Below, in pieces: positions 6,463-22,462 of a DNA stretch of 35,888 bases. The position numbers were made by a program, and so were the translations under genes. The first letter of the stretch is position 1. Every line of letters starts with the position of its first letter. This DNA comes from Minisyncoccota bacterium (lineage in GTDB: Bacteria > Patescibacteriota > Minisyncoccia > JAHIHE01 > JAGLIN01): NCBI GenBank assembly GCA_023142595.1, contig JAGLJF010000051.1, forward strand, positions 1 through 35,888, written 5' to 3'. Below the pieces are notes generated by a model. It had not been told where the DNA came from, made no database searches, and saw only the letters and a list, made by a program, of their open reading frames with translations.

Positions 6463-7572
6463 ATGAATAATGTCAACCTCCAAGAAAAACAAATAAAAAT
6501 AGACAATTTAAATATAAATTATAAAGAAATTGGAAATGGTGATATTCCGATTGTTTTGTTACATGGATGGGGAATTGATTCAGATAAGTATATGGAGTTG
6601 GCAAATTTGATAGTTAATTCAAATACGACACAAAAAAATAAATCAGAAAACAGTGAAACTTCACAAGAGAGTTTTATTCAGGAAAATGGAGTTAATGAGA
6701 ATAATGATAATTTGCAAAAAAGCTCCAGTCAAGAAACTGAAGCCAACGAAGATTCCTCCCCTGATAAGGGGAGGTTAGGAGGGGTTGATTTACGTTTTCA
6801 AACCCCCCAACCCCCCTTGTCAGGGGGGAATAATTCTCCTTATAAAATCATCATTCCAGATCTTCCTGGGTTTGGAAAAAGTGATGAGCCAGATGAAAAT
6901 TGGAATTTAGATAATTATGTTGAATTTACAGACAAATTTATAAAAAGCGTAACACAAGCAAGAGGATTTGAACTTTTGAAAAACATTATTAAAAAATCAA
7001 ATATAAAAGATCTGATGAATGGTGGATTTAGTTCAATTTCTGATACCAAAACAGAAGAAAAGAAAAAAGTTATTTTAGTCGGTCATTCTTTTGGCGGAAG
7101 GATCGCGATTAAGTATGCTGTAAAATATCCAGATAAAATTGAGAAATTGGTTCTTACTGGCGCGGCTGGAATCAAACATTCGCTTTCTAGGAAACAAAAG
7201 ATATTGTATGTTGCAACGAAAACTGGAAAAACAATTTTTTCTTTGCCTGTGATTAATAAATTTCAAAAATATGCCGAAAAGTTTTTATATAAAATTATCA
7301 GAGAAAAAGATTATAGAAAAGCGAGTTTGAGAATGAAAGAAATTATGAAAAAAGTTCTTGCGGAAGATTTAACGCCGATTTTGGAGAAAATAAAAACCAC
7401 AACACTTTTATTGTGGGGTAGGCTTGATAATTCAACTCCACTTTCTGATGGAAAGTTAATGAATGAAAAAATTGAAAATTCTGAACTTGTGATTTTTGAT
7501 GATGCAAATCATTCTTTGCCATATCAAAAGCCAGAAGAGTTTACAAAAGATATAATTAAATTTATCACATAA
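6463..7572 (+). CDS. Alpha/beta hydrolase with long low-complexity insertion
   Basis: IVLLHGWG, PDLPGFGKSDEP, ILVGHSFGGRIAIKYA (nucleophile elbow GHSFGG), LLLWGRLDNSTPL, DDANHSLPYQKPEEF. Confidence 0.88.
   Translation: MNNVNLQEKQIKIDNLNINYKEIGNGDIPIVLLHGWGIDSDKYMELANLIVNSNTTQKNKSENSETSQESFIQENGVNENNDNLQKSSSQETEANEDSSPDKGRLGGVDLRFQTPQPPLSGGNNSPYKIIIPDLPGFGKSDEPDENWNLDNYVEFTDKFIKSVTQARGFELLKNIIKKSNIKDLMNGGFSSISDTKTEEKKKVILVGHSFGGRIAIKYAVKYPDKIEKLVLTGAAGIKHSLSRKQKILYVATKTGKTIFSLPVINKFQKYAEKFLYKIIREKDYRKASLRMKEIMKKVLAEDLTPILEKIKTTTLLLWGRLDNSTPLSDGKLMNEKIENSELVIFDDANHSLPYQKPEEFTKDIIKFIT
6753..6830. repeat. C/G-rich inverted-repeat element inside the hydrolase CDS (78 bp)
   Basis: TTCCTCCCCTGATAAGGGGAGGTTAGGAGGGGTTGA...TTTTCAAACCCCCCAACCCCCCTTGTCAGGGGGGAA; arms are imperfect reverse complements; a near-identical right arm occurs at 20211-20245. 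Confidence 0.75.
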
Positions 7573-19717: not shown

Positions 19718-20023
19718 ATGAAATTAATAAACGAAAATATCATAGAAGATTTGAAAAATTCTTTGGGGTTGAAGTTTTTATCAGAAGAAGATGGTCAGAA
19801 AATTTTGACGGATGTTTTGAGTTTGATTAGCGAGAGGGCTGGTTTGCGAATTGTTGCGGATTTGAACGAGGCGGAAATTGATGAGTTTGAAAAAATTCCG
19901 AAGAGTGATTTTGAAGGAATGGAAAAATTTCTTCTTGAGAAAAATCCCAAAACAGAAAGTATTTTTTCAGAGGAAATTGAATTGGTGAAAAAAGAGATGT
20001 TGAATTTTAAGAAAGAAAAATAA
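19718..20023 (+). CDS. Hypothetical protein (possibly DUF5663-like)
   Basis: 101 aa acidic helical ORF, MKLINENIIEDLKNSLGLKFLSEEDGQKILTDVLSLI...; family assignment from memory only. Confidence 0.65.
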   Translation: MKLINENIIEDLKNSLGLKFLSEEDGQKILTDVLSLISERAGLRIVADLNEAEIDEFEKIPKSDFEGMEKFLLEKNPKTESIFSEEIELVKKEMLNFKKEK

Positions 20024-20064
20024 GAGCTTTGTTGGTGTGATTGTTTTGATGAAGTGTAGTAATC

Positions 20065-20175
20065 TGTCATTCTGAGGAGGAACGACGAAGAATCCCGAAG
20101 TCTATGTGAATGAAGCTGTATTGTAGCGTTGTGTGAAATTAAATGCGGGATTCTTCACTATCGTTCAGGATGACG
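20065..20175. repeat. Inverted doublet of dispersed palindromic element (111 bp)
   Basis: TGTCATTCTGAGGAGGAACGACGAAGAATCCCG ... CGGGATTCTTCACTATCGTTCAGGATGACG; arms are reverse-complement relatives. Confidence 0.75.
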
Positions 20176-20210
20176 ATGTTGAGATAATTTTATTTATAAC
20201 TCTGCGCAAT

Positions 20211-20290
20211 TCAAACCCCCTTGATCCCCCTTGTCAGGGGGAAACAAACAATACTTAAAATTTCTTAATCCTCTTTATTAGAGGGAGCTA
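20211..20290. repeat. Intergenic C/G-rich palindromic element
   Basis: TTCAAACCCCCTTGATCCCCCTTGTCAGGGGGAAAC...TTCTTAATCCTCTTTATTAGAGGGAGC; matches the element inside the hydrolase gene. Confidence 0.7.
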
Positions 20291-20734: not shown

Positions 20735-22462
20735 ATGAGCAAAAAAGAAATTAATAATACAGAAAAAAAACCAGTCGTTGAAGTTTCTGATTCTGAAAGT
20801 GAAACTGTAGAGGAAATTGTTGCTACTGAATCAAATGAAGTTGAAAAAGAAGTTAAAGAAGTTGAAGGTTTGAATCAACAAACCAGTGATATTGTGTCTA
20901 CTCTTGGAGATCAAGGGATGGGAGAAGAAAATAGACGATTAGGAGAAGAGGCAGATAAACTTGTGGAGAGAGTTAAAAATGAAATTGAAGATGTCTCTTC
21001 TGCAGTAAAAGAGAAAGAATATCAATGTAACGCAGAGGAATTTGAAAAGCTTAAATTGTTTTTAGAAGAAGGAGGAGATGGAAGATGGAACAGTGCGCTT
21101 ATTACTCTTTGGGGAAAAATAGAAAACGATTTGGCATTACCTAATTTTTTTTCACAATCGTTTAAAACTTATCAAGTTCATAAATATAGTGAGGAAGCAG
21201 TAGGAATTAAACTACATTCTACGAATGAAATTGTAAAGTTTACGTTAAATTTTAATGATGAAAAACGAGGCATTAGCGTCAGTGATTTTGAGGTATTAAA
21301 AAACGATGAAGAACAAGAAGACATACCAGTAGAATCAGAAGAAACAACCGAAACCGAAACTGAAAAATCGGAAGATTTGAGTGTTGTTGTGATAGTTAAA
21401 AAAATTAATAAGGGAGAAAGAGTTGATGAAAAAGGAGAGATGAAATTGAGAAAAGAGATTGAGAAAATTATTTTGGCGAAGGGTTCGGTAGATGAGTCAA
21501 AGGAGGTTTGGACAGATGATGAAGGAAAAATGATGGCGGCCTATATAAAAGGAATTGATTTGAAATGGTTTAAAGAGGGAAATATGACTCGAATGGAGAT
21601 TGATTTTGATTTGAAAAGCATTGAATTTAATGATCTTGAAACTGAAAATGAGAAAAAGGATTTGATTGAGGAACGAAAAAAAGATTCTGCAGAAAAATTA
21701 ATTGAGCAGAATGTAGTAGAAAACGAAGAAGAAATTAATGATAATATCGGAGAGTTAAAGAGAGGATTACAGAAAAAAATTGAGATAGAGGCAAAAGCCT
21801 ACGAAGATATTTGTAAAGAGCAAAGCGCCGAAGATCTTTTTAATGAGAGTGGAAGAGAAAAGATGAAAAATATTATTGAGTACTTGAAAAAATCAAATCA
21901 AATTGAATTAAATTTAGAGAGACTGGATTATTATAATATTGCTTCTGATAGTGGCAAAATTGATTCTATGATAAGAGAAGAGCATGTTCAGAGAGATTAT
22001 ATAATTCGAATGTTAGAGCAGTCGCTGTTGGCGTTGGAACAGGTGAAAGAACTTCTTGATAAGAAAGAGGAAGATTTGAATAATGAAGAGAGAAGTGCTT
22101 TAGAAAAAATAGCTCAAGTGATTAAGGAAAATCCAAAAATGACAATTGTGGCTGTTGCAGCTCTTTTGGCAGGATTAGGATTGATTGCAGTTTATGGTCC
22201 TGGAATTTATGCAGGAGTTACGGGATTAGCAGGAGAAGAAGTAGCTGAAGAAATTATAAAAGCAACAATGAAACAAGCGGTAGATAATGGAGCGAAAAAA
22301 GGATTGACATATTTAGGTGTAGGAGCGGTTGTTGGTGGTACTGGTCTTATAGCTGCTTTTTATGCCGCATTTGATGAGGGAAAAAGAGACGACTTTATGA
22401 AATGGATTACTAATAAAGATGTTCCTACATGGAGTCGAGTAGGAGAAACAAACAAAGCTTAA
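20735..22462 (+). CDS. Large charged hypothetical protein with C-terminal hydrophobic segments
   Basis: 575 aa; long E/K-rich region then MTIVAVAALLAGLGLIAVYGPGIYAGVTGLAG and GLTYLGVGAVVGGTGLIAAFYAAF. Confidence 0.78.
   Translation: MSKKEINNTEKKPVVEVSDSESETVEEIVATESNEVEKEVKEVEGLNQQTSDIVSTLGDQGMGEENRRLGEEADKLVERVKNEIEDVSSAVKEKEYQCNAEEFEKLKLFLEEGGDGRWNSALITLWGKIENDLALPNFFSQSFKTYQVHKYSEEAVGIKLHSTNEIVKFTLNFNDEKRGISVSDFEVLKNDEEQEDIPVESEETTETETEKSEDLSVVVIVKKINKGERVDEKGEMKLRKEIEKIILAKGSVDESKEVWTDDEGKMMAAYIKGIDLKWFKEGNMTRMEIDFDLKSIEFNDLETENEKKDLIEERKKDSAEKLIEQNVVENEEEINDNIGELKRGLQKKIEIEAKAYEDICKEQSAEDLFNESGREKMKNIIEYLKKSNQIELNLERLDYYNIASDSGKIDSMIREEHVQRDYIIRMLEQSLLALEQVKELLDKKEEDLNNEERSALEKIAQVIKENPKMTIVAVAALLAGLGLIAVYGPGIYAGVTGLAGEEVAEEIIKATMKQAVDNGAKKGLTYLGVGAVVGGTGLIAAFYAAFDEGKRDDFMKWITNKDVPTWSRVGETNKA

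Follow-up and report, generated by a model that had tools for sequence, protein, structure and literature searches.

Rickettsia palindromic elements (RPEs) are found in frame within unrelated housekeeping genes, where a stop-free frame is translated into a peptide compatible with the fold of the host protein (reviewed in PMC10969869). In the same 2024 review it was pointed out that the RPE case is unusually frequent, that its contribution to protein evolution is still unexplored, and that something similar may have happened in other prokaryotes. Intragenic REPs are also already known. Di Nocera et al. (2013, PMC3733652) located GTAG/CGTC REPs inside ORFs of several species, tRNA synthetases included, where they add 20-30 extra residues, and recB provides a single example, from two Xanthomonas species, of different REPs at about the same site (PMC3733652). 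The text of that survey holds no mention of Patescibacteria (the words 'candidate' and 'OD1' are absent), and a search of a limited literature set found no paper joining RAYT/REP elements and Patescibacteria in substance. What is new here is the Paceibacteria lineage, the repeated occupation of given loops of essential enzymes by different families, and a series of inserts at successive stages of erosion.

The window, by which we mean the whole stretch of 35,888 nucleotides that was analysed, is a complete contig (C47) of a 1.04 Mb genome in 74 contigs, 957 kb of which was examined as stretches. A preliminary description had claimed a 78-bp inverted repeat in frame within an alpha/beta hydrolase gene, with a right arm that recurs in an intergenic spacer. 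Both claims were confirmed, and the features concerned are the following.

6463-7572, plus strand: alpha/beta hydrolase gene, host of the palindrome; 369 aa; Pfam Abhydrolase_1, 2.1e-20; orthologues across 9 genera within the family.
6616-6752, plus strand: low-complexity expansion of loop 1, residues 52-97; absent from all orthologues; pLDDT low from about residue 60 and below 50 from residue 73.
6753-6830, plus strand: full two-unit palindrome, 78 bp, an inverted repeat; read as SSPDKGRLGGVDLRFQTPQPPLSGGN, codons 98-123.
6753-6787, plus strand: left unit, of the CCTCCCC-TGATAA-GGGGAGG-TTA-GGAGGGG subtype; 97% match to the intergenic copy C15:11598-11631.
6796-6830, minus strand: right unit, in the opposite orientation to the left one, of the CCCCCC-TGACAA-GGGGGG-TT-GGGGGG-TTTGAAAA subtype; matches the family pattern genome-wide.
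6997-7065, plus strand: hydrolase loop 2, residues 179-201; no repeat in the window; other palindrome families at this position in G001, G002, G009, G010, G014 and G016.
20210-20244, minus strand: single-unit intergenic copy of the CCCC family, in the spacer between an ORF ending at 20023 and an ORF starting at 20735.

The palindrome begins at the last base of codon 97 (GAT), its peptide occupies 6754-6831, and the gene is longer by 26 codons as a net result. Of the six frames of the palindrome four contain stops, and the hydrolase gene uses one of the other two. Since 78 bp is divisible by three and a stop-free frame is available, the palindrome would be translated within the hydrolase, as we infer from the conservation of the frame, which is preserved across every insertion in at least 11 orthologues (in the order, 12 of 13 genera have the gene). 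The catalytic motifs (nucleophile GHSFGG, acid and His) are intact, and dN of ~0.2 against dS of ~1 to relatives gives a dN/dS of ~0.2, indicating that the gene is kept under purifying selection. As RNA the palindrome folds at -56.6 kcal/mol, much more stably than shuffled versions (-31.5, sd 3.5), which corresponds to z = -7.2. In each unit a third, G-rich arm mirrors the stem, as seen at 6753-6787 and in family copies (CCTCCCC..GGGGAGG..GGAGGGG; CCCCC..GGGGG..GGGGG; roughly CCCTCCC..GGGAGGG..GGGGTGGG), and a purine-motif triplex or a G-quadruplex would be compatible with this mirror arrangement. No match to phages or plasmids that might have pointed to such an origin was obtained.

The window holds four occurrences of the core motif of the palindrome where 0.14 would be expected. 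Blast gave 36 pieces in the genome, and after merging there are 29 copies, in the 957 kb examined, of what we call the CCCC family. The left arm recurs as well as the right, which goes beyond what had been claimed. Of these copies, 25 lie outside ORFs, though ORFs cover ~81% of the sequence; the remaining four segments fall in three genes (hydrolase, MurB and ComEC), all in frame, as anticipated by the suggestion that other coding sequences might carry the element. The unit of ~35 bp can be written TTCCCCCTGAYAAGGGGG-(N)TTAGGGGGTTTGAA, with subtypes CCTCCCC and CCCTCCC. Among 286 genomes scanned, the exact pattern was multi-copy only in G000, G005, G001 and G008, all four from the window's family, and was met as a single copy in three genomes of the class that belong to other families (G020, G102 and G263), while the reversed pattern, used as a control, gave 0 matches in the 286 genomes. 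Paired units of opposite orientation were seen in the window copy, in G005 (L099) and in G020 (L326), whereas single units make up many of the copies. A second, related hairpin adjoins the copy of G263 and that of G020, and the two units of G020 have the inverted arrangement of the window copy. Another kind of repeat, of the 'CATTCTGAGGAGGAACGACGAAGAATC' type, occupies 20060-20180 in the spacer just upstream of the single CCCC unit, and a related TCATTCTGAAC family has ~98 copies in the same genome, 13 of them in ORFs.

Like RPEs, the CCCC palindromes are dispersed between and inside genes and lie in frame in otherwise intact, unrelated genes. Unlike RPEs, they belong to a host whose relatives are Candidatus Paceibacterota/Parcubacteria and not Rickettsiales, the element measures 78 bp rather than ~150 bp (PMC10969869) and is built of two inverted REP-like units, and several unrelated families occupy the same loops of the same enzymes. 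Judged by behaviour and lineage, the palindrome appears to work like an RPE but not to be one. With REP, BIME and REPIN elements it shares an imperfect palindromic unit of ~35 bp, dispersal, an intergenic bias and inverted pairs, and as in REP/RAYT systems the genome has Y1 transposase genes. In contrast to typical REPs, the copies examined have no GTAG or CGTC tag at their unit ends, the family numbers only ~29 copies, and no cognate transposase was found for it among the Y1 loci scanned. Enterobacterial RU/ERIC elements and intragenic MITEs are also small non-autonomous repeats with ORFs that lie inside genes (PMC2759123, PMC10969869), although RU, compared here by description, is longer (103-168 bp).

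In the hydrolase orthologues of G012, G010, G009, G003, G011 and G013, loop 1 is short and reads through without the insert, so that the empty sites sought in relatives do exist. A genome-contig scan supplied 80 homologues, from other Patescibacteria, Firmicutes, Bacteroidota and others; in all those from outside the order that could be parsed loop 1 spans 21-25 residues and loop 2 ~29-33, and deviating loop lengths were confined to the window's order. Loop 1 of the window is ~95 residues long, with a total insertion of ~72 residues comprising the palindrome peptide and, directly before it, a lineage-specific, S/N/E/Q-rich expansion of 46 residues. This other expansion blurs the exact pre-insertion site, which we count against the explanation preferred below, and the closest relatives compared stand at a dS of ~1.

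The position of the insert also bears on whether the metagenome assembly might have joined unrelated flanks through a repeat. In favour of such an error, the assembly is repeat-rich and in 74 contigs; however, the flanks are the two halves of one conserved gene and adjoin each other in all orthologues, the frame is unbroken, and inserts of the same kind are present in independent named assemblies (L202 RS_2_5 and L203 RS_2_6) and in several other genes, which makes an artefact barely credible. In the AlphaFold2 model the hydrolase core is confident (pLDDT 95-98 in the core blocks) and matches solved alpha/beta hydrolases, and pLDDT falls below 50 at residues 73-99 and 101-120, between a helix ending at residue 69 and a strand at 127-132. 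The palindrome-encoded peptide is thus predicted to be a disordered loop at the surface, linking helix A to the core strand that follows, which answers the suggestion to see by structure prediction whether it forms a surface loop.

We therefore favour, with a probability of roughly 0.87, the reading that a non-autonomous, REP/REPIN-like mobile palindrome inserted in the hydrolase gene and is translated as a flexible surface loop of 26 residues in an enzyme under purifying selection. It draws directly on the dispersed family, the empty sites, the continuity of the frame, the placement in a disordered loop, the retained gene, and the occupation of the same loops by unrelated families in sister genera. 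In the sequence of events that we envisage, two inverted hairpin units of ~35 bp would have entered the hydrolase gene of a Paceibacteria (Patescibacteria) genome, with insertion being roughly indiscriminate; selection would then have removed all but in-frame, stop-free inserts in tolerant loops, so that the same loops would recur; and inserts might later lose the palindrome and remain as ordinary loop sequence, as in MurB.

The two hydrolase loops are filled differently from genus to genus. Loop 1 carries the CCCC family in the window genome, G001 and G005 and pairs of GGYTCC repeats in G002 and G014. In loop 2 the palindromes are of the GGYTCC family (G001, G009), AGGGGCTTAGCCCCT (G010, G014), CGAAGGCGAACA (G002) or CTTGGAAGCC (G016), and the G016 hydrolase has two further loops with GGATCCGCC palindromes. 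All of these loop palindromes are in frame across genera. When family-level events were placed uniformly, the observed clustering was reached with frequencies of 0.0014 for the hydrolase, 0.001 for MurB and 0.00015 for TsaD; as the families were grouped by eye and the null was uniform, these simulations show non-random recurrence and not targeting. Selection alone can produce such clustering, and a target preference is thus not required. In comparison with intragenic GTAG/CGTC REPs, same-site recurrence was seen in all three proteins followed across the order, and one insert could be traced to the loss of its palindrome.

The CCCC copy in loop 1 of G005 carries a nested insert of 26 bp, and the same insert is present in an intergenic CCCC copy of G008. 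A small second, TTCGGCTATCGCTCAGGGCAGGC-like element was noted within the CCCC hairpin in these two genomes, and similar nested inserts appear to lie in other repeats, namely in TsaD of G008 and in a GGCTCC repeat of G014; the loci concerned are L039 (loop 1), L102 (near 2769), L311 and L063 (loop 1).

In MurB (dN/dS ~0.2) the CCCC family supplies the peptide PLDKGGWGVR in the window's genome, common to G005 and G007. The insert persists in G006 and G010 with its hairpin eroded, the fold z being ~0 as against -3.7 in the window's genome and -4.6 in G005. No CCCC copy was matched in G006 at E <= 0.01, nor by exact pattern, and its MurB insert can thus be regarded as a fossil. Other palindromes occupy the same site in G014, G001, G002 and G009, and the site is short in G011, G013 and others. 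The MurB insert is an old one that members of the genus have inherited in common and whose peptide is drifting, and what starts as tolerated selfish DNA therefore turns into ordinary loop sequence over time. The preliminary comparison with Rickettsia, of selfish DNA tolerated as peptide, consequently stands as regards behaviour, and does not hold as regards lineage or the later fate of the MurB insert.

The retention of a CCCC-derived peptide in MurB across the genus and beyond (G000, G005 and G007; eroded in G006 and G010) would also be expected if the repeat had been recruited for a useful peptide, such as a selected binding or regulatory loop. We regard this as unlikely for the hydrolase, given that at this position of the hydrolase, and likewise in TsaD, sister genera have either no insert or unrelated peptides that derive from different families, that the hydrolase peptide is predicted to be disordered, and that its hydrophilic frame is merely one of the stop-free frames. 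The orthologues do not share the peptide as a real protein domain, and other copies exist in the genome. The eroded MurB copies bear on another alternative, that the hairpin acts as RNA (an attenuator, a ribosome-pausing or folding signal, or an RNA processing site) and that coding is incidental. The mRNA hairpin would indeed be very stable, and intergenic REPs have been proposed as RNA elements (PMC3733652). Nonetheless, G006 and G010 retain the insert without the hairpin, the position differs between genes, no T-run follows the hairpin, and the palindrome has no match in Rfam, so that a role of this kind seems very improbable. The only known RNA family found in the window was a tRNA elsewhere.

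The reading of a mobile palindrome that is tolerated in loops extends to TsaD, one loop of which holds GTAGAGACG-type palindromes in the window's genome and related or different palindromes in G014, G004, G002, G003, G008 and G009. The congener G006, like G010, G001, G012, G011 and G013, has this loop empty.

The GGYTCC repeats lie on both sides of Y1 (RAYT-like) transposase genes in the window's genome (L032), in G002 (L089, six copies) and in G008 (L091). As it directly flanks such genes, this sister family is a REP family in the strict sense, and its mobilisation by Y1 (RAYT/TnpA-REP) is shown by association only. The CCCC family flanked none of 34 Y1_Tnp loci from 18 genomes, which are fragmented, and that a Y1 transposase also moves this family would be a guess by analogy. 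The Y1 transposase genes of the window's genome at L031, L032, L034, L035 and L036 adjoin palindromes that differ by locus, and that at L036 has its own repeat inside, in frame.

The Paceibacteria palindromes provide a case of the kind foreseen in the 2024 review, far from Rickettsia and in essential enzymes, for which sister genera supply sites that are empty, loops filled by other inserts, and old inserts that have eroded. Whether selfish palindromes become protein sequence can thereby be put to the test with comparative genomics and simple enzyme assays. A wider proposal, to which we would give slightly less than even odds, is that in this order of Paceibacteria several unrelated palindrome families continuously seed new loops, that a filled loop becomes a landing pad, as the nested inserts suggest, that eroded inserts persist as lineage-specific loops in MurB and TsaD, and that short mobile DNA may be a main source of new protein sequence in these reduced genomes. 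The findings are also a warning that lineage-specific loops of Patescibacteria proteins may be repeat-derived.

In a de novo survey of the ORFs of at least 150 aa, 33 of 643 were flagged for a repeat that is also intergenic, or ~25 after ~8 AT-rich matches were discounted by eye, a few of them being at ORF ends. The repeat-bearing ORFs include HypD, FemAB, a glucose-6-phosphate isomerase-like protein, ComEC, LeuRS and IleRS. Apparent 'intragenic' matches of CAGCCTGAAGG were discarded, as a run of N had been read as an ORF.

Two of the tRNA synthetase frames of the window's genome drew attention in their own right. The leucyl-tRNA synthetase frame on C30 (L163:14781-18416; 1212 aa; leuS_bact 1e-287) encloses two further domains within the synthetase, a NUDIX domain at 471-562 and, at 864-1048, a Ham1/RdgB (XTP/dITP diphosphatase) domain that is complete; whole house-cleaning enzymes seem to be nested within this essential LeuRS. 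The isoleucyl-tRNA synthetase frame on C18 (L139:17493-19967) has an inserted histidine-phosphatase domain (His_Phos_1 3.7e-41, residues 112-308) and also carries in-frame GGYTCC repeats.
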